64,000 nt of DNA. It comes from Betaproteobacteria bacterium (GTDB lineage: Bacteria; Pseudomonadota; Gammaproteobacteria; Burkholderiales; JAHFQX01). Position 1 is the first letter of the stretch, and the number at the start of each line of letters is the position of its first letter. The notes under the pieces were generated by a model. It did no database searches. It worked only from the letters and a program-made list of their open reading frames with translations, and was not told where the DNA came from. This document shows, piece by piece, positions 5,451 through 41,866 of this stretch. Position numbers and translations under genes: made by a program. The stretch covers positions 1 through 64,000 of the forward strand of contig JAHFQX010000006.1 in assembly GCA_023259135.1 (NCBI GenBank), read 5' to 3'.

Positions 5451-7183
5451 ATCTTTTCGGGGGCGGTCACTCCCAGCAGCCCGAGTCCATTGCGCAGCAC
5501 TTGGCCGGTGGCGGCCACCAAGGCCAGCCGGGCCAGCTTCAGGGCCGGGTCGGGCGCCAGGAAATGGGTGGCATTGTAGTAGCTGTGGAAAATCCCGGCC
5601 AGGTCTTTGAGATAGAACGCGACGATGTGGGGGGCCAGTTCCCGGGCGGCGATTTCGACGATCTCCGGATATTCCATCAAGCGCCGCAGCAGGAGCATTT
5701 CCTGCGCCTCCTCCAGCGGAGCGGGGTCGGCGTTAACCAATGCCGCCGGGTCTTTCCCCCATTGGGCCAAGACGCTGCAAATCCGGGCGTGGGCGTATTG
5801 AACGTAATACACCGGGTTCTCGTTGCTGCGGGATTTGGCAAGATCGAGATCGAAGTCCAGGTGCTGGTCGCTGTTGCGCAGCACATAGAAGAAGCGGGCC
5901 GCGTCGTTGCCCACCTCTTCCCGCAATTCCCGCAGCGTGACGAATTGCCCGCCGCGGGTGGACATGGAGATTTTTTTCCCGGCCCGGTACAGCACGGCGA
6001 ATTGCACGAGGACGACGGTGAGCCGCTCGGGATCCTGCTCCAAGGCCCCCATGGCGCCCTTGAGACGGGGCGCATAGCCGTGGTGATCGGCTCCCCAGAC
6101 GTTGACGAGCCGGTCGAAGCCCCGCTGGAATTTGTTGAAGTGGTAAGCGATATCCGAGGCGAAATAGGTGAACTGGCCGTTCTCCCGCCGCACCACCCGA
6201 TCCTTTTCGTCGCCGAAGTCGGTGGCCCGGAACCACAGCGCGCCGTCCTGCCGGTACAGATGCCCGGCCCCATCCAACTGCGCCACCACCCGCGCCACTG
6301 CTCCGGAGTCGAACAAGGAGCGCTCCGAGAACCAGGTGTCGAAATTCACTCCGAATTCCAGCAGATCGTTGCGGCCGTCGCCGAGCTGCTCGGTGAGGGC
6401 GAAGTCGTGGACATAGGCATAGTCCTCTCCCAGCAGTTTTTTGGCATTGGCGATGAGGGCGTCCAAATGAGCTTCCGGGTCGTCTTCGGCCGCCGGCGCG
6501 CCGGCGGTCACCGCCTCGGCGGGGCGCAGGTAGCGCCGGCCGTGGACGGCCCAGATTTGGGCTCCCATGGCTTTGACGTAGTCCCCTTGGTAGCCGTTGG
6601 CGGGGAAGGGGATGTCCGTCCCCGCCGCTTCCAGATAGCGCAGCCAGGTGGATAGGGCCAGGGTGTCCATCTGCCGGCCGGCATCGTTCACATAGTATTC
6701 CCGCTCGACTCGCCAGCCGGCGGCGGCCAGCAGATTCGCCAGACTGGCCCCGTAGGCCGCCCCCCGGCCGTGGCCCACGTGCAGCGGCCCGGTGGGATTG
6801 GCGGAAACGAATTCCACCAGCACCCGCCCCCGCTCTCCGGCCGGCCGGTTTCCGTAGCGCTCGCCGGCCCCGAGCACCCAGCCGGGGGCCCGGCGTCTTA
6901 CCTCGGGGCGAAAATGAAAGTTGATGAAGCCCGGGCCGGCGATCTCGGCGCGGTCCAAATAAGGGGACGGCCCCAAGCCGGCCAGCAGCGCCGCGGCGAC
7001 TTCCCGGGGCGATTTGCGGGCCGCCTTGGCCAATTGCAGGGCGATGTTGCTGGTGTAGTCGCCGTGCTCGACCTGCTTGGGCCGTTCCAGCAGCGGCTCC
7101 GCCGTTGCGCCGGGAAGGACCCGGGCCACCGCGTCGCGCAGCAGAGCGGTCAAATGGGCCTGGAGATCGGGAATGGCATCCAT
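5447..7183 (-). CDS. argS: Arginyl-tRNA synthetase
   Basis: 578 residues, normal length for ArgRS. Charges tRNA-Arg with arginine. The class I HIGH signature is present as TGPLHVGHGRG near residue 131, and the KMSKS-like loop as GKKISMSTRGG near 403. The N-terminal ArgRS additional domain (residues about 5-90) and the C-terminal DALR anticodon-binding domain (about 455-578, YVQYAHARICSVL) are recognisable. It ends inside the GTG start of the SPOR gene, so the two are translationally coupled. priA lies 48 bases upstream on the same strand. Confidence 0.98.
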   Translation of the reverse strand: MDAIPDLQAHLTALLRDAVARVLPGATAEPLLERPKQVEHGDYTSNIALQLAKAARKSPREVAAALLAGLGPSPYLDRAEIAGPGFINFHFRPEVRRRAPGWVLGAGERYGNRPAGERGRVLVEFVSANPTGPLHVGHGRGAAYGASLANLLAAAGWRVEREYYVNDAGRQMDTLALSTWLRYLEAAGTDIPFPANGYQGDYVKAMGAQIWAVHGRRYLRPAEAVTAGAPAAEDDPEAHLDALIANAKKLLGEDYAYVHDFALTEQLGDGRNDLLEFGVNFDTWFSERSLFDSGAVARVVAQLDGAGHLYRQDGALWFRATDFGDEKDRVVRRENGQFTYFASDIAYHFNKFQRGFDRLVNVWGADHHGYAPRLKGAMGALEQDPERLTVVLVQFAVLYRAGKKISMSTRGGQFVTLRELREEVGNDAARFFYVLRNSDQHLDFDLDLAKSRSNENPVYYVQYAHARICSVLAQWGKDPAALVNADPAPLEEAQEMLLLRRLMEYPEIVEIAARELAPHIVAFYLKDLAGIFHSYYNATHFLAPDPALKLARLALVAATGQVLRNGLGLLGVTAPEKM

Positions 7184-7231
7184 GGGGGAGCGGATGAAAA
7201 AGGGCGCATTATAGCCGGGCAGGGATTTTCT

Positions 7232-9415
7232 CTAGAACTCGATGGGGTCCACATCCAGCCCCCAGCGTACTCCCGGCGCCTTGATGTCCGCCAGCTTCGC
7301 CTGCCAGGCGGACAGAAAGCGCTGCAAGGCTTTGCGGGAAGTCGATTGAATCAGCAGTTGCCCCCGCTCCTTGCCGGCCAGCCGCGGCATGGCGGCGGGG
7401 ACCGGATCGTAGAGGGTCACCTCAGGCGGCGGCGGGGTGGATTGGGCCGCCAGCCGCAAAAAAGCCAAGACCGGGTCCGGAGTCCGGGCCTCGGCGCGCA
7501 GCAGCGCCTCGTGGGCATAGGGGGGAAACCCCGCTTGACGGCGTTCCGCCAGCAGCCGCTGGGCGAAGCCGGAATAATCCTGGGCGCGCAGCGCGGCGAA
7601 TAACGGGTGATCCGGAAATTCGGTTTGAATCAGCACCTCCCCGGGAATTCGGTCCCGTCCGGCGCGGCCGGAGACCTGCATCAACTGGGCGAACAAGCGC
7701 TCGCCGCTCCGATAGTCGGGGCTGAACAGCGAGGCATCGGCATTCAGCACGCAGACCAGATTCAGATGGGGAAAGTCGTGGCCCTTGGCCAGCATCTGGG
7801 TCCCCACCAGCACGTCCACCGCTCGGGTCGCCATGGCCTCCCGCAATTCGGCCCAGGCGTTCTTGCGCCGGGTACTGTCCCGGTCGATGCGCAAGACGCG
7901 GGCTCCCGGCAGATGGCGTTGCAGGGTTTGCTCGACGCGCTGGGTACCGTGGCCCACGGGAGCCAGATCCTGGTTGCCGCACTCGGGACAGGCGGCGGGA
8001 ATCTTTTCCCGGTGGCCGCAGTGATGGCAGCGCAGCGCGCCTTCGTTCCAATGCAGCACTAGCCGGGCGGTACAGCGGCGGCAGCCGGCGCACCAGCGGC
8101 AGTGGCGGCACAACAGCGCGGGGGCGTAGCCGCGGCGGTTGAGGAACACCAGGCTCTGGCCCCGGGCGGCGACGTTCTCCCGCAGCGCCGCCAAGCTCGG
8201 CTCGGCGAAGCCGTCGACCAACGGCTGCTTGCCGGTATCCACCAGCCGGATCCGCGGCGCTTCCGCCTTGGCTCGCCGGGTCAGGCGCAACAGCCCGTAG
8301 CGGCCTGCCAGCGCCCGGCCGGTGCTTTCCAGCGAGGGGGTGGCCGACCCCAGCACCACCGGGACGTTCCTCTGCCGCCCGCGGTAGACCGCCAAATCCC
8401 GGGCCGAGTAGCGCAAGCCCTCCTGCTGCTTGAAGGAGGTATCGTGCTCTTCATCCACCACGACGAGTCCCAGCCGCGGCAGCGGGGTAAACACCGCCAG
8501 CCGGGTGCCCAGCACCACATCGGCTTGTCCTTGGGCGGCCGCCAGCCAGTGGCGCAGCCGCTCGCCTTCGCCGAGCCCGCTGTGCAGCCAAACCAGGGAA
8601 TGCCGCGCGAAGCGAGCCCGAAACGCCGCCGCCAATTGCGGAGTCAGGCCGATCTCCGGAACCAGCACCAGGGCCTGTCGCCCTTGTTGCAAGGTTTCGG
8701 CGATGAGCCGCAGATACACTTCGGTCTTGCCGCTGCCGGTGACGCCCTGCAGCAGCCAGCAGCGGAACCGGTTCCGCTCCCCGTCGATGGCGGCCACGGC
8801 CTGGGATTGCTCGTCGGTCAGGACCGGGGCCGGGATGGGCGCGATGGGCAGGGCGGGCAAGGCGGGAGGCGCAATCTCGATCCGCTCCTCGGCCAGCCCC
8901 AGGGCCACCAATTCCCGCATCGCCCCTAGGGCCCGGGGGGAGAGGGCCTTCAGTTGATCGATGCTTAGGCGCGGGTGGGCGAGCAGCATTTCCAACACCC
9001 GGCGCGGCAAGATTTTTCGCGGCGGCAGGCGGCTTGGCCCATCGGTCCGGGCCAAGGGTGTCGGCAGCCAGCGGCGCTCCACCGGCAGGGTGGCGCCGGC
9101 GCGCCGCAAGCCTTGAGGCAAGCCGCCCAGGACTACTTCTCCCAAGGGGTGGTGGTAATAGCCGGCGCAGAAGCGGAACAATTCCAGCACGTCGCCGGGC
9201 AACCGGGTCTCGTCCCGCACAATGCGGGTCACGGGCTTGAGCCGTGCGGCCGGCAGCGCCGAGGTCTCGGCCAACTCCATCAAAATCCCGGCCCGCTGCC
9301 GAGAACCGAAAGGCACCAGCACCCGGCAGCCGATATCCGCCGCCGAGGCCCCGTCGGCCCGATAGTCGAACAGAGTGGCGAGGGGGACGTCCAGGGCCAC
9401 GCGGGCGAAGGTCAT
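7232..9415 (-). CDS. priA: Primosomal protein N' (PriA helicase)
   Basis: 727 residues. Restarts stalled replication forks by recognising branched DNA and loading the primosome. Visible in order: N-terminal DNA-binding domain (VALDVPLATLFDYRA), Walker A GVTGSGKTEVY near residue 228, the DEEH box VVDEEHDTSFKQQ, and the zinc-binding insert with paired cysteines (CRHCRWCAGCRRC, CHHCGHREK, CPECGNQD, about residues 432-480). The C-terminal helicase lobe contains QMLAKGHDFPHLNLV. Length and motifs are complete. It lies 37 bases after the MetH activation-domain gene on the same strand. Confidence 0.98.
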   Translation of the reverse strand: MTFARVALDVPLATLFDYRADGASAADIGCRVLVPFGSRQRAGILMELAETSALPAARLKPVTRIVRDETRLPGDVLELFRFCAGYYHHPLGEVVLGGLPQGLRRAGATLPVERRWLPTPLARTDGPSRLPPRKILPRRVLEMLLAHPRLSIDQLKALSPRALGAMRELVALGLAEERIEIAPPALPALPIAPIPAPVLTDEQSQAVAAIDGERNRFRCWLLQGVTGSGKTEVYLRLIAETLQQGRQALVLVPEIGLTPQLAAAFRARFARHSLVWLHSGLGEGERLRHWLAAAQGQADVVLGTRLAVFTPLPRLGLVVVDEEHDTSFKQQEGLRYSARDLAVYRGRQRNVPVVLGSATPSLESTGRALAGRYGLLRLTRRAKAEAPRIRLVDTGKQPLVDGFAEPSLAALRENVAARGQSLVFLNRRGYAPALLCRHCRWCAGCRRCTARLVLHWNEGALRCHHCGHREKIPAACPECGNQDLAPVGHGTQRVEQTLQRHLPGARVLRIDRDSTRRKNAWAELREAMATRAVDVLVGTQMLAKGHDFPHLNLVCVLNADASLFSPDYRSGERLFAQLMQVSGRAGRDRIPGEVLIQTEFPDHPLFAALRAQDYSGFAQRLLAERRQAGFPPYAHEALLRAEARTPDPVLAFLRLAAQSTPPPPEVTLYDPVPAAMPRLAGKERGQLLIQSTSRKALQRFLSAWQAKLADIKAPGVRWGLDVDPIEF

Positions 9416-9452
9416 AGGAGGAAGCCCCGTGGAGTCAAGCCCTGCGGCGGGC

Positions 9453-10283
9453 TCAAGCGATAAAGTACTTGGCTTCCGGATGATGGACCACGATGGCGCT
9501 GGTGGAATGCTCGGGCCACAGTTGGTCCTCGTCGCCCAACTGGACGCCGATGCGCTCGGCGTCCAGCAGTTGCAGGATTTTTCCCTGATCCGCCAGATTG
9601 GGGCAGGCGGGGTAGCCGAAGGAATAGCGGCTGCCGCGATAGCGCTGCTTGATGAGATCGGCCAAGTCCCGCGCGTCCTCTCTGCCGAACCCCAACTCCA
9701 CCCGGATACGCTTATGCACGAATTCCGCCAGTCCTTCCGCGCCTTCCGCCGCCAGGCCGTGCCAGTAAAGGTATTCCTGGTACTGGTCTTGGGCGAACAA
9801 TTGCCGGGCGAAATCCGCCGCGTATTGCCCCACGGTCACCAGCATGAAGCCCACCACGTCCATCTCGCCGCTTTCCGCGGGCCGGAAAAAATCGGCGATG
9901 CACAGCCGCCGGGCCGATTTTTGCCGGGGCAGGGTGAAGCGGCAGCGTTCCGCTTGGCCTTGCGGATCGGTATAAATCACCAGATCGTTGCCCTCCCCCC
10001 GGCAGGGAAAATATCCGTAGACGGCCTGGGGTTTCAAAACCTGCCGGGATTCGTTTTCCGCCGCCAGCCGGTTGAGGATGGGATCCAGCTCCCGGCGGGT
10101 GTATTCCCGGTATTGCTCCGGGCCCCGGCCCCGGGGCTTGAAGCCCCACTGGAATTTATACAAGGTGTTGCGGTTGATGTAGGGCAGCACCGCTTTCAAG
10201 GGGATCTGTTCCAGGCATTTAACCCCCCAGAATGGCGGGGTGGGGACGGGGTTGTCGTGACGGACAGCGGAGCGTTCGGCCAT
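9453..10283 (-). CDS. Stand-alone methionine synthase activation (AdoMet-binding) domain
   Basis: 276 residues. Corresponds to the C-terminal reactivation domain of cobalamin-dependent methionine synthase, which binds S-adenosylmethionine and a flavodoxin partner to re-methylate cob(II)alamin. Key match: RYSFGYPACPNLADQGK near residue 222, equivalent to the AdoMet-binding RxxxGYPACP motif of E. coli MetH; also EFVHKRIRVELGF upstream of it. The MetH at 11428-14016 ends right after its B12 domain and lacks this part, so the two proteins should work together. They are on opposite strands with a diguanylate cyclase gene between them, so they are not co-transcribed. Confidence 0.92.
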   Translation of the reverse strand: MAERSAVRHDNPVPTPPFWGVKCLEQIPLKAVLPYINRNTLYKFQWGFKPRGRGPEQYREYTRRELDPILNRLAAENESRQVLKPQAVYGYFPCRGEGNDLVIYTDPQGQAERCRFTLPRQKSARRLCIADFFRPAESGEMDVVGFMLVTVGQYAADFARQLFAQDQYQEYLYWHGLAAEGAEGLAEFVHKRIRVELGFGREDARDLADLIKQRYRGSRYSFGYPACPNLADQGKILQLLDAERIGVQLGDEDQLWPEHSTSAIVVHHPEAKYFIA

Positions 10284-10308
10284 GGGGGTTTTTTAGGGGG
10301 CGGGTAGG

Positions 10309-10337
10309 CTGACGGAAACGGAGAAACCCCGTATATT
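10309..10337 (+). promoter_or_regulatory. Possible sigma-70 promoter for the diguanylate cyclase
   Basis: CTGACG (10309-10314, 4 of 6 to TTGACA) and TATATT (10332-10337, 5 of 6 to TATAAT) are separated by 17 bases, about 65 bases before the TTG start at 10401, in the divergent gap. Confidence 0.4.
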
Positions 10338-10400
10338 AGTCGCAAGTCAGGAGTCGCGGTACCCATTGCGCCGGTACGGGACCCTCCGATCCTTGGTTTT

Positions 10401-11375
10401 TTGAGCCCTGATCCCGGTATTTCCTTGAAACCCGCTCCCAACATCGCCCGCCTGGTTTTGGACCGGCTTGCCGAACTGGGGTTGCCTTCGACTCTCGAGA
10501 ATTACTCCCGTTATTTTCGCGAGATAACCGGCGCCTCCCCCCAGGCTGCACCGCCTAGCGAGACTTCATCCCCGGTGGGCGATTCCGAGGGGCCCTTCAG
10601 CAGCCATGTTTTTGGGCTGTCGGTGGTGGAGGCGGCCCGAAAAATCGTCGATACCGTTTCCCAGACCGCCGACGACCTTGCCAAAAACATCGGCGACCCT
10701 AATCGGGAAATCAAGCCCTCCCCCGAAATTCTGGCTCGGGCCCAGGAACACAAGCAGATCCTGGCATTGTTGGGCAGTGTCATTGCCACCGCCAACGCGA
10801 TGCACCGCACGGTGGAGCAACTGATCCAGGCCCGGCAAGCGCTGGACCAACTCAGGGTCGAGCTCAACGCAAACCAAGCCCTGCTGCATCAAGACCCCCT
10901 GACCGGCATCCTCAACCGCCGCGGCATGGACGATCTGCTGGCCCGGGAGGCGGCCCGCAGCCGGCGGGTTAGCGGGGCGTTGGCGGTAGCCATGATCGAT
11001 CTGGATCATTTCAAGCAGATCAACGATAGCCACGGCCATTCGGCCGGAGACCGGACGCTGATCCACTTTGTGGAAGTGGCGAAATCGATGCTGCGGGAAA
11101 CCGACGTGCTGGTGCGTTACGGCGGCGAGGAGTTCCTGGTGATCCTGCCGGAAACCGACGCTGCCAGCGCGGAGAGGGTGGTCGAGCGCTTCAAGCAGGC
11201 GATAGCCCAAACCCCCTTGATTTTGGAAGGCAAGCAGATTTCCTTTACCTTCAGCGCCGGGATCGCCCAGCTCAGGGGCGGGGAGAACAGCCATGGACTG
11301 GTGCTGCGGGCGGACCAAGCCCTCTATGAGGCGAAGCAAGCCGGCCGAGATTGCATTATAATCGCCGGCCCATAA
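10401..11375 (+). CDS. GGDEF diguanylate cyclase
   Basis: 324 residues. Makes cyclic di-GMP from two GTP. The C-terminal GGDEF domain (about residues 160-322) is intact: DPLTGILNRRGMDDL, DLDHFKQINDSHGHSAGD, and the active-site loop RYGGEEF. No membrane helix or signal peptide is seen, so it should be cytoplasmic. The N-terminus has LGLPSTLENYSRYFREITG, a short region common to some cytoplasmic cyclases. The start is uncertain: TTG 10401 or TTG 10425, no ATG and no clear ribosome site. Residues about 61-72 (GDSEGPFSSHVFG) are encoded by a repeat copy also present in PhoH. Confidence 0.9.
   Translation: MSPDPGISLKPAPNIARLVLDRLAELGLPSTLENYSRYFREITGASPQAAPPSETSSPVGDSEGPFSSHVFGLSVVEAARKIVDTVSQTADDLAKNIGDPNREIKPSPEILARAQEHKQILALLGSVIATANAMHRTVEQLIQARQALDQLRVELNANQALLHQDPLTGILNRRGMDDLLAREAARSRRVSGALAVAMIDLDHFKQINDSHGHSAGDRTLIHFVEVAKSMLRETDVLVRYGGEEFLVILPETDAASAERVVERFKQAIAQTPLILEGKQISFTFSAGIAQLRGGENSHGLVLRADQALYEAKQAGRDCIIIAGP
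10581..10616 (+). repeat. Dispersed repeat (GGCCCTT family), in-frame copy inside the cyclase gene
   Basis: GATTCCGAGGGGCCCTTCAG continuing to TTGGG matches 30 of 36 positions of the copy at 21048-21083 in phoH and is read in the same frame, giving DSEGPFSSHVFG here and DSEWPFSAHVAG there. Confidence 0.7.
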
Positions 11376-15197: not shown

Positions 15198-18100
15198 TTG
15201 GCGGGTTCATTGCGAAAAAGCACCGAGGAGGGGAAATTTTTGGTTCGCGGCGCGGCCCCGATCTTGACTCGGCTGCGGGAGTTTTGGGGCGCCTCGTCCT
15301 GGATTTCCGTAGCGCTGTTAGCCGGTGTCGCCGCCTCGGCGATCGCCTGGGGGATTGCCGCCGACTTGGTGGAGCGCCGGCAACAGGCCGAGTTTCGTTC
15401 CCAAGCGGTTCAAGCCACGGAACTGATCCGGGGCCGTCTGGAAAGCTATACCCAGGTGCTGCGGGGCTTGCAGAGCTTGTTCCGGATCAAGTCCGAAGTC
15501 ACCCGCGCCGAGTTCCGGCGTTACCTGGAAGGCAGCGATTTGCCCCGGCTTTTTCCGGGCTATCAGGCCGTCCATTTCAGCCGCTTGGTTCCCGCCGCCG
15601 ACAAGGAGCGGTTCGTGGATGCGGTGCGCCGCGACCGCAGCTTGCTGCCGCAAGGCTATCCCGGGTTTGCCGTCGCTCCGCCCGGAGAGCGGCCTGAATA
15701 TCTGGTGATCGATTACGTGGAGCCCTATGCCGGCAACGAAGGCGCCATGGGTTTCGATGTCTACAGCCGGGAACAAACTCGGGGCACCGTCGAGCAGGCC
15801 AGGGATACTGGCCGCAGCGCCGCCACCGGGCCCTATACCTTGTTCCAGGACAGCGGCTCGCCGCGCATGGGCTATGTCCTTACCCTGCCGGTGTACCGGA
15901 TCGGCGCGCCGCTGGATACCGTGGAACAGCGCCGCGCCGCTTTCTGCGGCGTGGTCTCGGCGGCTTTCCGCATTGAGGAATTGATGGCCCGGATTCTCGA
16001 TTTGGAAACGCGGGCCGGCCTGGGATTCGTGATCGACGATTTGGGCTCCCCGGAGGAGCCGGGAGCCGTGACCGGCCGGCTGTTCAGTTGGGGAGAGCCG
16101 GACACGGCCGCGCAACGGTTCATGCACTCCGCGGAAATTCCCGTGGGGTCCCACCGCTGGCGGATGCGAGTGTTTCACAGTCACGCTTCGTCTCCGTATT
16201 TCCAGGCTCTCCCCGTCACGGTGGCGATCAGCGGGCTGGTGACCACCGGGCTGCTGGCCCTGCTGGTCGCCCTGCTGTTCACCGGCCAGCGCCGGGCCGC
16301 GGCGCTGGCCGGGGACATGACCCGGGAATTGCGGGACAGCGAAGAGCGGCTGCGGGTGATGATCGAAACCATCCCCATGCCCATCATTTTTTCCCGCCGG
16401 AGAGATGGACATGTGCTGTTCATCAACCACTGGACGGCAGAATATTTCGGGGTGCGCCGCCAGGAGGGGGAAGGGCGCACGGCCTACGATTACTACGCCG
16501 ATCCCGAGGATCGCCGTCCGGTGGGAGAACGGCTGCGCCGGGACGGCTTCGTGCGGGATTACGAGACTCGTTTCCGCAAGGCGGATGGCACGGTGTTCTG
16601 GGGCGCCTTATCCATCCAGTCGGCGGTGTTTCAGGGCGAGCCGGCGGTGCTGGCCGTGGTCCAGGACATCAGCGCCCGCAGGGCGGCGGAGGCAGCGCTG
16701 CGGGAAAGCGAGGAACTGAACCGAGTGATCGCGGAAACCATTCCCATCGCCCTGTCCGTTACCCGCCTGGAGGACGGTGCAGTGGTGTCCCACAGCCCGC
16801 GGTTCAGGGAAATTTTCGAGATTGCCGCCGATGGCGAAGAATTTCCGGCGATAGCCCAGTACGACGCTCCCTCGGACCGGGAGCGTTTTCTTGAGGCGCT
16901 CCGGCGGCAAGGGGCGGTGCGGGATTTCGAGGTGCGCATGAAGACTCGTGGCGGCCGCCGCTTCTGGGGGCTGCTTTCCGCCCGGACGGTGCTGTTGCGG
17001 GGAGAACAGGTGATCGTTGCCGCCACCCAGGACATTTCTTTTCTGAAAGAGACCGAAGCCGCGCTACGGCAGGCCAACCAGGTTCTGCAAACTATTATCG
17101 AGACTTCCCCCTTGGCGATTTTTGCCCTGGGTCCGGATTATCGGGTGACCCTGTGGAATCCCGCCGCGGAACGGCTGTTCGGCTGGTCGGCCCAGGAAGC
17201 GGTCGGCGGGTTTTCGCCTATTTTGCCCAAGGAGCAGACCGAGGATGGCTTGGTCTTGGCGGAAAGAATCCGCGCCGGCCGGGAAATCACGAATGTCGAG
17301 ATCACGCGTAGACGGCGGGATGGCTCCAGGGTGCTCCTCGACCTTGCCGCGGCACCGCTGCGGGATCCCGGCGGCCAAATGACCGGGGTGATGGTGATCG
17401 CCGCGGACATCACCGAGCGCAAACGGGCCGAAGAAGCCTTGCGCCTGAGCGAAGAGCGCTTCCGGGCGTTGACCGAGAATGCCTCGGACATCATCCTTGT
17501 GGTCGGGGAGGACAAGAAAATCCTCTACGAAAGTCCTTCGGCCCGCAGGTTGCTTGGATACGGAGGCGAGGAGCGCCGGGGCCAGTCGGCTTTTTCGAAT
17601 ACCCATCCGGACGACCTGCCGCTGCTGGAGGCAGCCTTCGCCAAAGCGTTTTCCGCTCCCGAGGAAACCATTCTGGCCCGCTTCCGGGTCCGCTGCGGCG
17701 ACGGGTCCTGGCGGATATTCGAGGCGGTCGCGATCAATTGCCTCGCCAATCCGGCGGTGCGGGGCATCGTGGTCAATGCTCGGGACGTGACCGAGCGCCA
17801 GCAGTCCGAGGAGCGGCTGGCCTTCCTCGCCCAGCACGACACCCTGACGGGACTGCCCAACCGCAACCTGATGATGGACCGCCTCTCCCAGGCCATGGTC
17901 CAGGCCCATCGCTCCGGCAAGCGGGTCGCAATCCTGTTCGTGGACCTGGACCGCTTCAAAACCATCAACGACTCCTTGGGTCATGAAGCGGGGGACAGGC
18001 TGCTGCAGACGGTGGGCTCGCGGCTATTGGGGTGCGTTCGCGAAGGCGATACCGTGGCGCGCCAGGGCGGGGATGAGTTCCTGGTGATCCTTCCGGAGAT

Positions 18101-31820: not shown

Positions 31821-32291
31821 ATGCAAAGATCGGCGCGGTCCGGCTTCACCCTCATCGAGCTGGTGGTAGTCATCACCATCCTGGGCTTGCTGGCGGCTTT
31901 CGGCTTGCCCAAGTTCTTCGCCGTGCAGGCCGATGCCCGGCTGGCCAAGATGAACGGCGCCATGGCCTCGGTGAAATCCGCCGCCGCCATGGCCCATGCC
32001 CAACTGCTGGCGCGGGGTTACGACGCCAACTACACCGGCACCCCGTCTCCGGGCATCGTCGCCGAGGGTACCACCGTGGTGTACGCCAACGGTTACCCCG
32101 ACGCCAGCGTCATCGCCGCCCTGGCCGGCCTGGCGGCTCCCGACTACGACGTCCCGGCGGCCTCGGCCACCGCCCAGGCGGTCCGCTCGGACGCCAACCA
32201 TGCGACTTGCGAGTTCATCTACAATGAAGCCACGGCGGGCAATCAGCCTCTCTATACGACGACCAATCTGACCTTGGCGAATTGCCAGTGA
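31821..32291 (+). CDS. mshB: Type IV pilin-like protein (MshB-like)
   Basis: 156 residues. Leader MQRSARSG and mature [20 protein letters not shown] with Glu+5 (class IVa prepilin). The C-terminal half has two Cys (near 133 and 155) that could form the pilin disulfide loop. GAGGAG precedes the ATG, and a TAGAAT (31784-31789) upstream may be part of a separate pilin promoter. Placed as MshB by its position between mshF and the two MshA-like genes; it could instead be another major-pilin variant. Confidence 0.85.
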   Translation: MQRSARSGFTLIELVVVITILGLLAAFGLPKFFAVQADARLAKMNGAMASVKSAAAMAHAQLLARGYDANYTGTPSPGIVAEGTTVVYANGYPDASVIAALAGLAAPDYDVPAASATAQAVRSDANHATCEFIYNEATAGNQPLYTTTNLTLANCQ

Positions 32292-32329: not shown

Positions 32330-32698
32330 ATGCAGAGCAAGCAAAGCGGTTTTACCTTGATCGAGCTGGTGGTGGTGATCGTGATTCTGGGGATTATGGC
32401 GGCTACCGCCCTGCCCAAGTTCATCGATCTGCGGACTAACGCGGCCGATGCCGCCACCGATGGAGTGGCCGGGGCCCTGGGGTCGGCTTCGGCCATCAAC
32501 AAGGCGGCGCGCGTGGTCAGCACGACTCTCGGGGTGTCCATCGGCAACTGCCAGCACGTGTCCAGCGCCCTGGACGGAGGCTTGCCGACCGGCTATAGCA
32601 TCAGCTCGACGGCAGTGACCAACGGCGCGACGGTAACATGCACCGTGACCGGCCCTCAGTCCCAGACCGCCAACTTCGTGGCCCACGGCATCACTTAA
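32330..32698 (+). CDS. mshA: MshA-like major pilin, copy 1
   Basis: 122 residues. Leader MQSKQSG then [20 protein letters not shown]; disulfide candidates in IGNCQH and VTCTVTG near 72 and 103. GAAGGAG sits 8 bases before the ATG. The next gene is a close copy, with about 20 differences in 122 residues by eye, most of them between residues 36 and 113; the first 35 and last 9 residues are nearly identical. Ser/Thr-rich surface segments make it a plausible target for the glycosyltransferase encoded downstream. Confidence 0.92.
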   Translation: MQSKQSGFTLIELVVVIVILGIMAATALPKFIDLRTNAADAATDGVAGALGSASAINKAARVVSTTLGVSIGNCQHVSSALDGGLPTGYSISSTAVTNGATVTCTVTGPQSQTANFVAHGIT

Positions 32699-32753: not shown

Positions 32754-33122
32754 ATGCAAAGCAAGCAAAGCGGTTTTACCTTGATTGAACTGGTGGTGGT
32801 GATCGTGATTCTGGGGATTCTGGCGGCCACCGCCCTGCCCAAGTTCATCGATTTGCGGGGCGACGCGGCCGACGCCGCCACCGACGGAGTGGCTGGGGCC
32901 TTGGGGTCGGCCTCGGCGGTGAATAAGGCGGGCCGGCTGGCCAATACCGCCAACGGGGTGTCCATCGGCAACTGCCAGGACGTGGCCAACGCCCTGGACG
33001 GAGGCTTGCCGACCGGCTATACCATCACCTCGACGGTGGTGACCAACGGCGCGACGGCCAACTGCACCGTGACCGGTCCCCAGACCAAGACCGCCAACTT
33101 CGTGGCCCATGGCATCACTTAA
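32754..33122 (+). CDS. mshA: MshA-like major pilin, copy 2 (tandem paralogue)
   Basis: 122 residues, the same length as copy 1 and sharing leader, helix, cysteine positions and the ending [10 protein letters not shown]. Even the untranslated stretch CGAAGGAGTCAAACGATGCA before the start is the same, so the duplicated unit includes the ribosome site. Changes include Gly-Asp for Thr-Asn after DLR and [10 protein letters not shown] for SISSTAVTNG. Which copy builds the pilus cannot be told from sequence; both look intact. Confidence 0.92.
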
Positions 33123-33156
33123 GCACCGCTGACCCAAGGATTTTCCGGGTTTGTCC

Positions 33157-33456
33157 ATGCCCCCCCCTTTGCCCAGCCCGGCGGAGGCGGCCCGGGAGCT
33201 GGCCCGCCAATTTGCCCGCCAGGCCCCCTTGGACGGCGCAATCCGCGGCGATCCCGGCCAGACGGCGGAGCAGGCGATCCGGCAGTTATGCGAGGCGGCG
33301 CAACGCTTCCGCGCTACCCGCCGCCTCGGCATCATCGCCCGCGCCCGCTTTGCCAAGGCGCTGCAAGACGAGCTCAAGGCCCTGGGCTACGCCCCCGATA
33401 CGGTGAGCCGGGTGACCACCGCGGTGCTGGTGGGGGCGCTGACGGGCAAGGGATGA
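33157..33456 (+). CDS. Small conserved-looking helical protein, unknown
   Basis: 99 residues from ATG 33157 (TTG 33151 is possible). Largely alpha-helical with many Ala and Arg (RELARQFARQAPLDGAIRG, FRATRRLGIIARARFAKALQ); no signal peptide or membrane helix. It overlaps the glycosyltransferase start by 4 bases (ATGA), so the two are coupled, which suggests a shared job. I do not recognise the family. Confidence 0.75.
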   Translation: MPPPLPSPAEAARELARQFARQAPLDGAIRGDPGQTAEQAIRQLCEAAQRFRATRRLGIIARARFAKALQDELKALGYAPDTVSRVTTAVLVGALTGKG

Positions 33457-35714
33457 CGGTTCCCGCGCCGCCGACAGCAAGCCTTTCCCGTTCTTCCTTG
33501 CTGCCTCGGCTGGGGGCCTGGCTGCTGCGCAAAAGCGGCGACGCCTTGGCCCATCGAGGCCACCGGTTGCTGGCGGCCGCCTGCTACCGCCAAGCCCGCG
33601 AACTGGACCCCCAGAATGCCGAAGCCGCTTACCGATTGGGACGCAGCCTGCTCCTGGAAGGCTCCTTGGAAGAAGCCACCGGATATTTCCGCGCCGCCAT
33701 CGCGGCCCGCCCGTCCCACGCCGAAGCCCACAACAACCTGGGGGTGGCCCTGGAACGGCAAGGCCGCCAACAGGAAGCCGAGGCCTGCTACCGGCGGGCG
33801 CTGGAGCTGAACCCCCGGCTGGCCCCCGCCCACAACAACCTGGGCAATTCGGCCCTGGCGGCGGGGCGGCTGCAAGCAGCCGAAACCCATTACCGTCAGG
33901 CCATCCGGCTCGATCCCGATTACCCCGAAGCCCACAACAATCTGGGAGGGCTGCTTAACCGGCTGGCTCGCCACGCCGAAGCGGAAGCCGCCTGCCGCCG
34001 GGCCTGGGTGCTGTTCCCGGAGTTCGCCGGCGCCGCCAATAACCTGGGCAACGCCCTATGGGGCCTGGGCAAGGTGGAGGAGGCCGCCGCCGCCTTCGAG
34101 GAAGCCTTGCGCCTCGAGCCTGGGCTGGGGGAAGCCTGGGTCAACCTGGCCATCCTCACCGGGGACGCCACGAAGCTGGCCGGGGCGGTGGATTATTATG
34201 AAAAAATCCTGGCCCGGGATCCCCGTTCGGTGGAAGCCCATGTCCGGCTGGGCTTGGCCCTGCAAGCCCAAAGACGCCTGGAGGAAGCCGAAACCCATTT
34301 TCTTCACGCCCTCGAAATCGAGCCCGGCCATGCCTTCGCCAGGGCCAGCCTGGGCCACAACCGGATGTTCGAGGGCCGCTTGGAGGCAGGCTTGGCGGAC
34401 TATCGGCGGGCCATCGAGCTGGATCCGGAAAACGGCCCCCATTCCAGCCATTTCTTCTATTCCCACTACGCCCACGGCTTCGACCCGGCGCGGGTCTTCG
34501 AGGCCCACCGCGCTTGGGGGCAAAGGGTCATGCGGCTGGCGGGGCCGCCGCGCCGCAATCACCCCAACCCCGCCGATCCCGAGCGCCGCCTCAAGCTGGG
34601 CTATGTTTCCGCGGATTTCTGCCGGCACTCGGTGACTTGGTTTTTCGAGCCCTTGCTGCGTCACCACGACCGCTCCCGGTTTGAAATCCATTGCTACTCC
34701 AACCTGGTGAAGGGCGACGAGGTCACCGAGCGCATCCGTGCCCAGGCCGACGGCTGGCGCGACGTGCGGTTGAAATCCGACGCCGACTTGGCGGCGCGGA
34801 TAGAGGCCGACGGCATCGACATCCTGGTGGATCTCAACGGCCACACCTCCGGCCACCGGCTGGGCGCCTTCGCCCGCAAGCCGGCTCCTATTCAGGCCAG
34901 TTATCTGGGTTATCCGGATACCACGGGCGTCCCGGCCATCGATACTCGCATCACCGACGCCGTGGCCGATCCGCCGGGCTGGACCGAGGCTGGCCACGTG
35001 GAGCGCCTGACGCGCTTGCCCGGCTGCTTCCTGGCTTATCAACCGCCCGCCGATGCCCCCGCCGTCGCGCCACTGCCTTGCCTGGCGACGGGCCGCGTCA
35101 CCTTCGGCAGCTTCAACAACGCCTTGAAGACGAACCCCCGAGTGGCGGCCCTGTGGGCGCGGATTCTCGACCGGGTGCCCGGCAGCCGGCTGCTGCTCAA
35201 GCACACCGCCTTCGGCAACCCCAGGGGGCGCGAGCATTTCGCCCGCATGTTCGGCGAGCACGGCGTCGGCCCGGAACGGCTGGATCTCAGGGATTTCACC
35301 GCCTCCACCGAAAGCCACCTGGCCCTCTACGGCGAAGTGGACGTGGCCCTGGATCCCTTCCCCTACAACGGCACCACCACCACCTGCGAAGCCCTGTGGA
35401 TGGGGGTGCCGGTGGTGGCCCTGGCGGGCCGGGTGCACGTGGGCCGGGTGGGGGTGAGCTTGTTGAGCGCGGCGGGCCTGGCGGATTGGGTCGCCGCCGG
35501 CGAAGAGGAATACTTGGCCCAGGCCGTCGCCCTGGCCGCCGACCCCGAGGGGCTGGCCCGGATCAGAGCGGCGCTGCGCCCGCGACTGGCCGCTTCGCCC
35601 TTGCTGGACGGCGCCGGACTGGCCCGCCGCCTGGAGCGAGCCTATCGGCAAATGTGGCATGATTGGTGCGAAACTGCGGGGAAACAACGGAAGGAAGCCG
35701 GTGCCGCGACTTGA
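33453..35714 (+). CDS. TPR O-GlcNAc-transferase-like glycosyltransferase (GT41)
   Basis: 753 residues from ATG 33453. About eight TPR units (residues about 35-320; for example AEAHNNLGVALERQGRQQEA) are followed by a GT41 catalytic region: GYVSADFCRHSVTWFFEPL near 384, DLNGHTSGHRLGAFARKPAP near 460, TFGSFNNALKTNP near 550, and DPFPYNGTTTTCEALWMGVP near 635. GT41 enzymes attach a sugar to Ser/Thr of proteins. Standing directly after two Ser/Thr-rich pilin genes and inside the msh locus, it most likely glycosylates the pilin; that substrate is inferred, not shown. Confidence 0.93.
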   Translation: MTVPAPPTASLSRSSLLPRLGAWLLRKSGDALAHRGHRLLAAACYRQARELDPQNAEAAYRLGRSLLLEGSLEEATGYFRAAIAARPSHAEAHNNLGVALERQGRQQEAEACYRRALELNPRLAPAHNNLGNSALAAGRLQAAETHYRQAIRLDPDYPEAHNNLGGLLNRLARHAEAEAACRRAWVLFPEFAGAANNLGNALWGLGKVEEAAAAFEEALRLEPGLGEAWVNLAILTGDATKLAGAVDYYEKILARDPRSVEAHVRLGLALQAQRRLEEAETHFLHALEIEPGHAFARASLGHNRMFEGRLEAGLADYRRAIELDPENGPHSSHFFYSHYAHGFDPARVFEAHRAWGQRVMRLAGPPRRNHPNPADPERRLKLGYVSADFCRHSVTWFFEPLLRHHDRSRFEIHCYSNLVKGDEVTERIRAQADGWRDVRLKSDADLAARIEADGIDILVDLNGHTSGHRLGAFARKPAPIQASYLGYPDTTGVPAIDTRITDAVADPPGWTEAGHVERLTRLPGCFLAYQPPADAPAVAPLPCLATGRVTFGSFNNALKTNPRVAALWARILDRVPGSRLLLKHTAFGNPRGREHFARMFGEHGVGPERLDLRDFTASTESHLALYGEVDVALDPFPYNGTTTTCEALWMGVPVVALAGRVHVGRVGVSLLSAAGLADWVAAGEEEYLAQAVALAADPEGLARIRAALRPRLAASPLLDGAGLARRLERAYRQMWHDWCETAGKQRKEAGAAT

Positions 35715-35776
35715 GGTGGGGAAGGGTTGCCCGGCGAGGCTTGGACAAGGCCGATGAACATCCGGAAAAGGACGGC

Positions 35777-37201
35777 ATGTTATTCAATAAGGATTTCTGG
35801 CGTTGGCTGGGGACGGGGTTGAGAGGGAACCGGCCCCGGGATATCGGGGTGGAGATCCCCGGCGGCGTGATGGTCCGGGTGCCCGACGATCTTGAGCATC
35901 TCACGTCCTACATTCTGCGGGAGCAGGGGGATTGGTTCGAGGCGGAGCTGCCCTTCCTGCGCCGCGCTGTCGGACCCGGCATGACCGTGGTGGACGTGGG
36001 GGCGAGTTACGGCACCTATGCCCTGTCCCTGGGCCGGCGAGTGTTGCCGGGGGGCGCGGTGTGGGCTTTCGAGCCGGCTCCCGAGGTGTTTCGCTTCCTG
36101 GAATCCAGCGTCCGGGCCAACGGCTTCAAGCATGTCCACTTGACCCGGGCGGCGGTGTCCGAGGCGCCGGGCACCGGCACCCTGGTGTTTGAAAGCCAGT
36201 CCGAATTACGGGGCCTGGGTCCGGCCGGGGCGGCGGGCGAGACGGTGGATTTGGTGAGCCTGGACGAGAGTCTGGAGCGTCACGGCTGGGCCTCGGTGGA
36301 TGTTCTCAAACTGGACGCCGAAGGCGCCGAGACGGCCATCCTGCGGGGGGCACGGCGCTTGTTGGCGAACCACTCCCCCCTGGTGATGGCGGAACGGCTG
36401 CACGGCGACCGGGTGGATACGGAGCTGGTGGGGGCTTTCCAGGACCAGGGCTATGGGCCTTATTTCCTGGTGCCGGGGCCGGGAATTTTGGCGCCTTGGG
36501 ACGAGACGGAGGGCGATCCTTGGCAGCTCAACCTATTTTTCTGCAAGCCGGACCGGGCCCGCGCCCTGGCCGAGAGGCGTTTCCTGGCGTTGTCCGATGG
36601 CCTGGAAGCGCGATCGGCCGGCCGCGGAGACGCTCTCGAAGCGCCGCCCTGGCAGGAGGCGGTGGCGGGCCGGGCCTATGCCAGCCGGATCGGGGCGTCC
36701 TGGGCTCCGGCGGCCATGAGCCCCGGCCATGCCGCGGCCCTCGGCTGGCTTGGCGCAAGCCGCGATGCGCAATCGTCTCCCGCCGCCCGATATGAAGCGC
36801 TGCGGGAAGCGGCCCGCTTGCTGGAGCGGGACAAGGCCCTGCCGAGTCCCGCCCAGCGGCTGACCCGGTTCCGGGTGCTGGCGGAACTGGGGCAGCGCAG
36901 CCGGGCCTTGGAGCTTTTGGAAAGCTTGCTGGGGGCCTTGCCCGATATCGTCGAGGGCTGCCGACGGGAGCCGTTCGCCGCGCCTTCCGCCGCCTTCGAG
37001 GCCCTGGACCCCCAGGACCGCTTCGAGGATTGGCTAAAGGCCGGGCTGCTGGACGCGGCGGAGACGCTGGGCAGCTTTTCCGGCTATTTCACCGGCGCCG
37101 ACAGCCTGGCCCGTTTGTCCGGCATGGCGGTGGCGGGGTTTTTGCGGCCGCCCATGGCCCGCCGGCTGGATTGGCTGCGGCGCCGCATGGGTCTGGGGTA
37201 A
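35777..37201 (+). CDS. FkbM-family methyltransferase with C-terminal extension
   Basis: 474 residues from ATG 35777, preceded by AAAGGA. The first 250 residues are an FkbM AdoMet-dependent methyltransferase: VVDVGASYGTYALSLGRRV (motif I near 73), WAFEPAPEVFRFLESSVRAN, and VDVLKLDAEGAETAILRG. The last 200 or so residues are Ala/Arg-rich, helical and unassigned (RLTRFRVLAELGQRSRALEL). FkbM enzymes often O-methylate sugars, so with the GT41 neighbour it may finish a pilin glycan. The two genes are 62 bases apart on the same strand. Confidence 0.88.
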   Translation: MLFNKDFWRWLGTGLRGNRPRDIGVEIPGGVMVRVPDDLEHLTSYILREQGDWFEAELPFLRRAVGPGMTVVDVGASYGTYALSLGRRVLPGGAVWAFEPAPEVFRFLESSVRANGFKHVHLTRAAVSEAPGTGTLVFESQSELRGLGPAGAAGETVDLVSLDESLERHGWASVDVLKLDAEGAETAILRGARRLLANHSPLVMAERLHGDRVDTELVGAFQDQGYGPYFLVPGPGILAPWDETEGDPWQLNLFFCKPDRARALAERRFLALSDGLEARSAGRGDALEAPPWQEAVAGRAYASRIGASWAPAAMSPGHAAALGWLGASRDAQSSPAARYEALREAARLLERDKALPSPAQRLTRFRVLAELGQRSRALELLESLLGALPDIVEGCRREPFAAPSAAFEALDPQDRFEDWLKAGLLDAAETLGSFSGYFTGADSLARLSGMAVAGFLRPPMARRLDWLRRRMGLG

Positions 37202-37369: not shown

Positions 37370-37900
37370 TTGAAAAACCCCTCTCCCCCCGAAGCGCCGC
37401 GCCCGATGGAGGCCGGGGCCGTGGAAATAGTGTTGACTGATCCACCCCCCGCCGTGCACGGCTTCAGCCTGGTGGAACTGGTGATGGTGATGGTCATTTT
37501 GGGCATCCTGGCGGCGGTGGCGATTCCCCGTTTCTTCGACCGGATCACCTTCGACACCGTGGGTTTCTACGACCAGGCCCAGGGCATCGTGCGCTTCGCC
37601 CAGAAAGTGGCGGTGGCCCAGCGGACCTCGGTGCGGGTGGACGTTTCCGCCGGCGCGGTGCAAGCTTGCTATTGCGCCACGCCGGCGTGCGCCGCTTGCG
37701 GCGCCGCGGTGCTGGATCCCCTCACCGGCAATGCCTTGAGCGCCACGGCTCCCGCCGGAGTGGCGCTGGCCCCCGTCGCCGATTTTTCCTTCAATGGCCT
37801 GGGCCGTTCCAGCCTAGCCTCGGCGCTGGCGGTGACGGTGACCGGCGACGCCGTCAAGACCTTTTACGTCGAACCCGAGACCGGCTATGTCCATCCTTGA
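37370..37900 (+). CDS. mshC: MSHA minor prepilin MshC-like
   Basis: About 176 residues from TTG 37370; ATG 37406 is an alternative and would give a shorter leader. After the leader, [21 protein letters not shown] is the prepilin cleavage site and helix. The globular part has a Cys cluster (QACYCATPACAACGAAV) and ends VKTFYVEPETGYVHP, typical of MshC-like minor pilins (GspH-type). It overlaps mshD by 14 bases. Confidence 0.82.
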   Translation: MKNPSPPEAPRPMEAGAVEIVLTDPPPAVHGFSLVELVMVMVILGILAAVAIPRFFDRITFDTVGFYDQAQGIVRFAQKVAVAQRTSVRVDVSAGAVQACYCATPACAACGAAVLDPLTGNALSATAPAGVALAPVADFSFNGLGRSSLASALAVTVTGDAVKTFYVEPETGYVHP

Positions 37901-40370: not shown

Positions 40371-40865
40371 ATGAGCATGTTTCAAGTGATTGAAATGCTC
40401 GACCAGGCCGATATCGACTACGTGTTGGTGGGCGGTTTGGCCGTCGCGCTGCATGGCTATCAGCGAGTCACCATGGATGTCGATGTGGTCCTCGCGATGA
40501 CCGAGGATAACTTGCGGCGCTTCATCGACTGCGCCAAGTCCGCCGGCTTGCGTCCCGTGATTCCAGTCGAGATCGAGGCGCTGGCTCGGCCGGAGTTGAT
40601 CGAACAGTGGCATCGAGACAAAGGGATGCTGGCTTTCGGGTTGCGCGGCGCCGATATGATGGCGCCCGTCATTGATGTATTGGTCAAACCGGTAATACCG
40701 TTTTCCGAACTGCGGCGCGACGCGAAGTTGATCGCCGTGGGGTTGCTGACCGTGCCGGTCGCCTCGATCGAGCATCTGATTGCCATGAAGACCGGCACCG
40801 GGCGCAGCAAGGATGCCATCGATATCGAGGAATTGCGGAAGATCCAGGAGGGAACGCCGCCATGA
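40371..40865 (+). CDS. Nucleotidyltransferase-fold protein (AbiEii/MNT-like)
   Basis: 164 residues. The nucleotidyltransferase signature is clear: VLVGGLAVALHGYQRVTMDV followed by DVVL, giving the GG and DxD of the active site (about residues 20-41). The downstream part has APVIDVLVKPVIPF and VASIEHLIAMKTGTGRSKD-AIDIEEL, as in AbiEii-like and related toxin-antitoxin nucleotidyltransferases. The next gene overlaps it by 4 bases. Likely half of a toxin-antitoxin or defence pair; whether it is toxin or antitoxin is open. Confidence 0.85.
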   Translation: MSMFQVIEMLDQADIDYVLVGGLAVALHGYQRVTMDVDVVLAMTEDNLRRFIDCAKSAGLRPVIPVEIEALARPELIEQWHRDKGMLAFGLRGADMMAPVIDVLVKPVIPFSELRRDAKLIAVGLLTVPVASIEHLIAMKTGTGRSKDAIDIEELRKIQEGTPP

Positions 40866-41056
40866 ACGCCCAACAAAACTACCGTCTATTGCAGGAAATA
40901 GACGCGAATCGCCGGTTTCTCCTGCAGGCCTATCGCGATAACCCGGAGCTGCTGGCGCGTGCGGAACCCGGCATCAAGCGCCTGCTCGACGCTGCGCGGA
41001 ACGACGTGCCTGATAGGGCTTCAAAACCCCGTGCTGGCCAAGCAAGGGGGAAGTAA
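40862..41056 (+). CDS. Small partner protein of the nucleotidyltransferase, unknown
   Basis: 64 residues, starting in the stop of the previous gene (ATGA). Charged and helical (LLQEIDANRRFLLQAYRDNP, ELLARAEPGIKRLLDAARND) with a basic tail. No domain recognised. The tight coupling suggests it acts with the nucleotidyltransferase. Confidence 0.7.
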   Translation: MNAQQNYRLLQEIDANRRFLLQAYRDNPELLARAEPGIKRLLDAARNDVPDRASKPRAGQARGK

Positions 41057-41137
41057 AGCGTACTGCGAATCAAGAAATGGCCTCGCGTTTTGCCCTGATC
41101 TGATATTTGTATGATGTGACACCCCTGCAAACAATCC

Positions 41138-41158
41138 GGTAAGATGCATGATCTTACC
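41138..41158. promoter_or_regulatory. Palindromic operator candidate of the vapBC-like pair
   Basis: GGTAAGAT-GCATG-ATCTTACC, a perfect 8-bp inverted repeat, 17 bases before the antitoxin start. Antitoxins of this type usually repress their own operon by binding such sites. Confidence 0.6.
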
Positions 41159-41174
41159 AACCCGGGAGCTTACT

Positions 41175-41444
41175 GTGGAAACTGTAAAACTTTCAACCAA
41201 GGGACAACTCGTCATCCCGAATGAAATACGCAAAGCGCATCATCTGGCAGTGGGTACTGAATTCGTCGTCTCTTTCGTCGGCAACGAAATTCGCCTCACT
41301 CCATTGCCGATGTTTCCGCGCACATCGGTCGCCGATGCTGCCGGCTTGCTGTCAAAGCGCGGCAAGAAAAATTTGAGCGCGGAAAAGACTCGCGCAAGCA
41401 TCAGGAAAACATTGCAAGCACGAGATGCCTCTACCCGCTCATGA
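41175..41444 (+). CDS. vapB: AbrB/MazE-type antitoxin (VapB-like)
   Basis: 89 residues from GTG 41175 with GGGAG upstream. N-terminal swapped-hairpin DNA-binding domain: ETVKLSTKGQLVIPNEIRKA then HHLAVGTEFVVSF. The basic C-terminal tail would bind and neutralise the toxin. It overlaps the PIN-domain gene by 4 bases (ATGA). Confidence 0.88.
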   Translation: METVKLSTKGQLVIPNEIRKAHHLAVGTEFVVSFVGNEIRLTPLPMFPRTSVADAAGLLSKRGKKNLSAEKTRASIRKTLQARDASTRS

Positions 41445-41866
41445 TTGCGCTCGACACCAGCATCCTTGCGCGCTTCCTGCTCAACGACGACCCGGCGCAA
41501 TTCAAGCAAGCGCGGGACTTGCTGGCGCGCCCGGAGGTTTACACCGCGCCGCCCACCGTATTGCTCGAACTGGTATGGGTGTTGGAGTCTTACGACTGCG
41601 CTCGTGGCGAAGTGGTGCAAGCCCTGAAAATGTTGATGGGCTTGCCAAACTTCAAACCCAAATCGTTCGAGGCAATTTGCTATGCGGTGAACTGGTACGC
41701 CGAAGGAATGGATTTCGGCGACGCCATGCACCTCGCCTTGAGCGCCGGAGAGGACGCCTTGGCCACTTTTGACAAAACATTGGGAAAAGCAGCGAAACAG
41801 AATGGCATCGCTCCGCGGGTGCGGGTATTAAAACGCCAACCTCACTCGCTCAAAGGCGCGGAATGA
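41441..41866 (+). CDS. vapC: PIN-domain toxin (VapC-like ribonuclease)
   Basis: 141 residues. PIN-domain acidic residues are visible: MIALDTSILARFLLNDD (Asp5), PTVLLELVWVLESY (Glu in the first helix pair) and MDFGDAMHLALS with a further Asp, then LATFDKTLGKAA. Such toxins cut tRNA or rRNA and are held by the antitoxin encoded upstream. The cassette sits within the msh locus but is not part of the pilus system. Confidence 0.9.
   Translation: MIALDTSILARFLLNDDPAQFKQARDLLARPEVYTAPPTVLLELVWVLESYDCARGEVVQALKMLMGLPNFKPKSFEAICYAVNWYAEGMDFGDAMHLALSAGEDALATFDKTLGKAAKQNGIAPRVRVLKRQPHSLKGAE

Follow-up and report, generated by a model that had tools for sequence, protein, structure and literature searches.

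Between the pilin gene mshA and the gene mshC of a mannose-sensitive haemagglutinin (MSHA) pilus locus, we found three inserted genes, probably a unit dedicated to O-glycosylating the MSHA pilins in the cytoplasm. They encode a tetratricopeptide repeat (TPR)-containing glycosyltransferase of family GT41, an FkbM-family methyltransferase and a small proposed helper protein, orf99. The locus lies on contig JAHFQX010000006.1 of a Betaproteobacteria bacterium (assembly GCA_023259135.1), of which positions 1 to 64,000 were analysed (the window).

Domain searches identified the locus as MSHA through an MshEN/T2SSE ATPase, a T2SSF protein, prepilins and a DUF6701 protein as MshQ, and its genes follow the msh order mshE, G, B, A, C, D, O, Q. 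All genes described here are on the forward strand. An mshB-like prepilin gene (31821..32291; PF07963 N_methyl 1.5e-7, IV_pilin_GFxxxE above cut-off) is followed by mshA1 (32330..32698; N_methyl 7e-10) and mshA2 (32754..33122; N_methyl 3e-10), which are 84% identical and encode the candidate acceptors. Then orf99 (33157..33456) starts 34 bp after the stop of mshA2, the third pilin gene, and encodes 99 amino acids when counted from ATG; an alternative TTG at 33151 adds two. The gap between mshA2 and orf99 contains no promoter- or terminator-like site, in a scan of the whole stretch that yielded such sites at no more than chance level. The start of the GT41 gene (33453..35714, 753 amino acids) overlaps the stop of orf99 via ATGA, and the FkbM gene (35777..37201, 474 amino acids) begins 62 bp past the GT41 gene. 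The three genes are where the first-pass annotation placed them. Next comes mshC (37370..37900; N_methyl 9e-7, 55% identical to mshC of genome G047), which normally lies directly 3' of mshA. Only orf99 separates the GT41 gene from mshA2, an adjacency like that in pilin-linked Ogt systems of the cyanobacterial type.

The slot between mshA and mshC

To place the insertion in context, we searched 399 genomes of the order for mshG and retrieved 80 loci. Together with the loci of G047 and the window, this gave 71 that could be measured. The distance from the last pilin gene to mshC had a median of 115 bp; it was at most 300 bp in 63 of the 71 loci and exceeded 1 kb in only six. The interruption is thus truly unusual, as had been claimed. 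Four of the six large inserts are glycosylation candidates. Besides the window cassette, the slot of G047 (L081), which belongs to another genus, holds a class I methyltransferase and a TPR-GT41 enzyme 35% identical to that of the window. The slots of G131 (L207, 2453-4453) and G169 (L247, 2317-4368) hold ligase-like proteins of 666 and 683 residues, respectively, which are evident sequence homologs; Wzy_C (E 3.5e-20) was run on the G131 protein alone. The remaining two inserts consist of small genes resembling toxin-antitoxin pairs in G153 (L214) and of a single large protein in G306 (L238). In addition, the mshB-mshA interval of G123 (L243) encodes a PglL_A/Wzy_C_2 ligase, and G091, congeneric with G047, lacks the insert.

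The place next to mshA is thus repeatedly taken by glycosylation genes of two mechanistic classes, which is the strongest argument for the pilin as acceptor. The pilin oligosaccharyltransferases TfpO/PilO, TfpM, PglS and PglL are mostly encoded by genes linked to their pilin genes (PMC12645811), and Wzy_C members occupy this same slot in related genomes. These are membrane enzymes that use lipid-linked glycans in the periplasm, whereas the GT41 enzyme is a soluble protein that depends on a nucleotide sugar; it gave no Wzy_C match and contains no hydrophobic 19-residue segment.

The GT41 and FkbM enzymes might instead target something else, for example MshQ, proteins of the cytoplasm or a glycan on the surface; their place in the msh operon would then be the result of an insertion. 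Unrelated inserts do occur in the slot (L214, L238), and a GT41-FkbM pair stands away from pilins in G049 (see below). We consider this unlikely, since glycosylation candidates prevail among the large inserts and orf99 connects TPR-glycosyltransferases to pilus loci in differing arrangements.

Two further observations were made at these loci. The L207 and L247 proteins have C-terminal TPR-like repeats beside Wzy_C (tested in L207) and are candidate MSHA-specific oligosaccharyltransferases. In L214, a 208-residue membrane protein without Pfam family is encoded between mshB and mshA (2072-2698), and a gap of similar size is present at that position in several MSHA loci of the same family.

The GT41 enzyme and its likely sugar donor

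The GT41 enzyme consists of about eight TPRs and a Glyco_transf_41 domain (PF13844; 180.6 bits vs a cut-off of 25, E 4.9e-53). A tRNA-Gly called by ARAGORN at 33937-34028 was rejected as a false positive, as it arises from repeated coding sequence within the TPR part of the gene. The best solved relatives of the enzyme are structures of Arabidopsis SPINDLY (SPY), a plant protein O-fucosyltransferase (7y4i and 8dtf, E about 1e-147), with human O-linked N-acetylglucosamine (O-GlcNAc) transferase (OGT) scoring lower, and the SPINDLY alignment runs unbroken across the TPRs and the catalytic domain. The essential K665 of SPY corresponds to K559 and the active-site histidine H495 to H392. This lysine is kept in 97/97 and the histidine in 95/97 aligned homologs, in line with membership of GT41. 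Conserved as well are S496, V497, K689, H728, Y744 and E752 of SPY (S393, V394, K583, H622, Y638 and E646, respectively), whereas A731 is replaced by L625. SPINDLY also differs in being a eukaryotic nucleocytoplasmic regulator of many proteins.

In SPY, guanine is contacted by K689 and fucose by Y744. Residues of this type suit guanine and fucose, whereas uridine and the N-acetyl group clash with them; at the positions of K689, A731 and Y744, OGT has L866, R904 and C917 (PMC10027727). The window enzyme matches two of the three SPINDLY-like clan marks (K583 and Y638) and, with K, L and Y at these positions, none of the three OGT/SEC-like marks. Moreover, the genome encodes gmd (594 bits vs a cut-off of 415) and a homolog of the GDP-fucose synthase gene fcl, whose best PDB matches are E. 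coli GDP-fucose synthetase (E 2e-102), so that GDP-fucose is probably available in the cell. Because of the SPINDLY-like residues together with gmd and the probable fcl, the sugar transferred is predicted to be likelier a deoxyhexose than an N-acetylhexosamine (HexNAc). Of the earlier proposal that the pilins are O-glycosylated with HexNAc, the glycosylation is well supported by gene position and comparison, whereas HexNAc as the sugar is not.

If the enzyme were an O-GlcNAc transferase, it would modify the pilins from UDP-GlcNAc and the FkbM enzyme would methylate HexNAc. It does belong to the GT41 family, and the pilin-linked cyanobacterial enzymes carry the annotation Ogt (PMC12288463). However, K583 and Y638 stand where OGT has L866 and C917 (PMC10027727), and SPINDLY rather than OGT is the closest solved relative. 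We therefore regard an O-GlcNAc modification as quite improbable.

The FkbM methyltransferase and the orf99 family

The methyltransferase contains a curated FkbM domain well above cut-off (PF05050, 51.3 bits vs 22.7, 2e-13; TIGR01444, 91 bits vs 37.7, 9e-26). As the TIGR01444 match spans residues ~70-206, the C-terminal extension comprises ~245 residues; the extension had been noticed before, but was put at 200. It sets the protein apart from other FkbM-family members, and among the loci studied here it was found elsewhere only in L148 (E 9e-25) and L074 (E 7e-13). No solved relative was found at E 0.01, and a literature search on FkbM methylation of fucose returned nothing usable.

In L148 (uncultured gammaproteobacterium ES_M_Gamma_018), orf99 at 10004-10309 is followed by a single open reading frame of 1290 residues, in which TPRs and GT41 (39% identical to the window enzyme) are fused to FkbM with the extension (35% over 484 residues). 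Its neighbours are pilB, pilC and a prepilin-peptidase-like gene. This fusion supports a shared substrate or joint action of the two enzymes. The pair can also stand apart from pilins, as in G049 (L074), where the GT41 gene is divergent from an FkbM gene bearing the window-type extension. The latter (7985-10618) encodes 877 residues with the FkbM domain, the extension and an apparent second FkbM domain, and the GT41 gene adjoins a porin-like gene.

No family in Pfam or NCBIfam was found with orf99. We searched for its family in the 399 genomes of the order, in 398 genomes across the phylum and by scanning genome contigs with the family alignment. Within the order, 25 of the 399 genomes gave matches, among them the window genome, which also has a paralog. 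Phylum-wide the family was rare (3/398 genomes, every one from the same order). The contig scan yielded 80 named loci, mostly from betaproteobacterial metagenome-assembled genomes and in addition from Leptothrix, Sphaerotilus, Rhizobacter, Herbaspirillum and Methylococcus capsulatus, so that orf99 has its own family of 70+ members. It was callable in 78 loci, and in 72 of these a TPR-GT41 or TPR-GT9-like gene lies at most 6 kb away; five of the six loci without one sit at most 1.5 kb from a contig end. Operon read-through is insufficient to account for this link, because the orientation of orf99 relative to the glycosyltransferase gene varies. Within 10 kb of orf99, prepilins were found in 46 and pilB-like genes in 34 of the 78 loci, many of which are on short contigs. 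When only loci with complete flanks were considered, a prepilin lay at most 4 kb from orf99 in 18 of 50, vs none of 69 background stretches, which were shorter (4-5 kb in length, from a site 9 kb downstream of mshG). In a quick tree of GT41 enzymes the orf99 loci were scattered and formed no single clade, so orf99 does not track one GT41 lineage.

TPR proteins with a GT9-like C-terminal domain lie at most 6 kb from orf99 in 62 of the 80 loci (L092-L171) and are commoner there than GT41. They are probably parallel pilin glycosyltransferases.

The orf99 protein has an isoelectric point (pI) of 10.7 and no hydrophobic segment. The model of the Methylococcus member (predicted local distance difference test, pLDDT, 84.1) has four long helices and one short helix, and the model of the window protein (pLDDT 69.5) has the same helices. 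When searched against the PDB, both models gave chance helical matches only (best E 0.33), and no PDB sequence was matched in a profile search. According to these models, orf99 appears to represent a basic four-helix family undescribed in the searchable literature and databases. Its small size, very basic character and lack of a known fold would also suit a regulatory role, or an unrelated small protein that accompanies pilus genes without acting on glycosyltransferases. We consider this rather unlikely, since the link to TPR-glycosyltransferases is tighter than that to pilins or pilB, and orf99 overlaps the GT41 start in the window.

The same genome contains a candidate second pilin glycosylation island on contig C29 (L027, 4685-13671). 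A pilA-type pilin gene (6826-7254, minus strand) is directly followed by the orf99 paralog (6400-6705, minus strand). Also present are two GT41 genes, one gene of the TPR-GT9-like type and, at 15384-17756, a gene for a pilB-like ATPase. The donor positions read K-A-Y in one GT41 enzyme and K-R-F in the other. The island further encodes a TPR-bearing multi-pass membrane protein that resembles a GT-C enzyme, in which Pfam matches nothing beyond the TPRs.

Proposed function and known systems

In the mechanism that we propose, the TPR superhelix of the GT41 enzyme would bind the prepilin in the cytoplasm, either ahead of export or while it is under way, and a single sugar would be transferred to prepilin serine or threonine residues by the SPINDLY-like catalytic domain. 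The donor would most likely be a GDP-6-deoxyhexose such as GDP-fucose, not UDP-GlcNAc, and the FkbM enzyme would then O-methylate the transferred sugar. The orf99 protein would be a partner of the TPR-glycosyltransferase, its most likely task being to present or recruit the prepilin. The pilin as target of the GT41 enzyme is well supported by the Wzy_C-type ligases and the GT41 enzyme of another genus in the same slot, by the second island with orf99, pilin and GT41 genes, and by the link of orf99 to TPR-glycosyltransferases, often near pilins or pilB.

Several points weigh against this proposal. Type IV pilins are usually inserted co-translationally, which leaves little time for a cytoplasmic enzyme. 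As prepilins usually leave the cytoplasm during their synthesis, a prepilin-presenting helper is plausible, and orf99 is a candidate for it. The pilins had been described as Ser/Thr-rich, but their content is ordinary: serine and threonine make up 26% of the globular part of MshA1 and 19% of that of MshA2, vs a mean of 22% (standard deviation 4%) in 70 other MshAs. G047, G131 and G169 (L081, L207 and L247, respectively) all come from one family, so independent events at the slot are few. GT41 loci without orf99 were near pilins in 2/11 cases, which did not differ significantly from orf99 loci in an underpowered comparison (Fisher p 0.31). No prepilin was found near the GT41-FkbM pair of G049 within the stretch fetched. 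As to the donor, the fcl homolog scored 438 bits, under the NCBIfam cut-off of 500, the replacement of A731 leaves two of the three SPY-clan residues, and bacterial GT41 enzymes with a mixed clan pattern exist (PMC10027727).

Two known systems resemble parts of the proposed unit. The cyanobacterial Ogt of Nostoc punctiforme and Synechococcus elongatus is encoded beside pilA and involved in PilA glycosylation, so an OGT-type gene next to a type IV pilin gene has a precedent; it comes from another phylum and concerns PilA instead of MSHA, and no orf99 or FkbM partner is reported in the review (PMC12288463). FlmG of Caulobacter binds flagellin through its TPR domain and glycosylates it in the cytoplasm with its C-terminal GT-B domain, and thus shares the TPR-glycosyltransferase architecture and the cytoplasmic filament acceptor proposed here. 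In contrast, its acceptor is flagellin, its sugar is pseudaminic acid and its chaperone FlaF is distinct from orf99 (PMC7591256). The novelty of a GT41 enzyme acting on pilins, which the first-pass annotation noted for MSHA pilins, therefore holds for these but not for type IV pilins in general. No paper linking an O-GlcNAc transferase with MSHA and pilin was found, and a search on glycosylation of MSHA pilin yielded a single one, with an abstract about syntrophic genomes, in a coverage that leaves out most subscription journals. As far as the literature could be searched, the orf99 family and the GT41-FkbM fusion appear to be undescribed, as do the SPINDLY-like donor site and the occurrence in an MSHA locus.

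Pilin glycosylation in Proteobacteria has so far been described mainly for periplasmic oligosaccharyltransferases. If our proposal is true, Betaproteobacteria would glycosylate pilins in a second way, through a cytoplasmic TPR-GT41 enzyme that differs biochemically from these but is encoded at the same gene slot. It would then have to be explained how a rapidly exported pilin gets modified in the cytoplasm. More tentatively, it is possible that SPINDLY- and GT9-like TPR-glycosyltransferases constitute an unrecognised cytoplasmic route, mainly in Betaproteobacteria, that puts a deoxyhexose (O-fucose or kin) on prepilins before export, with the orf99 family as obligatory acceptor-presenting helper. 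With its small size and its link to TPR-glycosyltransferases in at least 72 loci, orf99 offers a concrete handle, and bacterial SPINDLY-like O-fucosylation becomes testable on a simple filament protein.

Elsewhere in the window, between the mshP and mshQ regions (40371-41866), we observed a DUF6036/AbiEii-like nucleotidyltransferase gene and a PIN-domain gene preceded by a small AbrB-like gene, which resemble toxin-antitoxin pairs.

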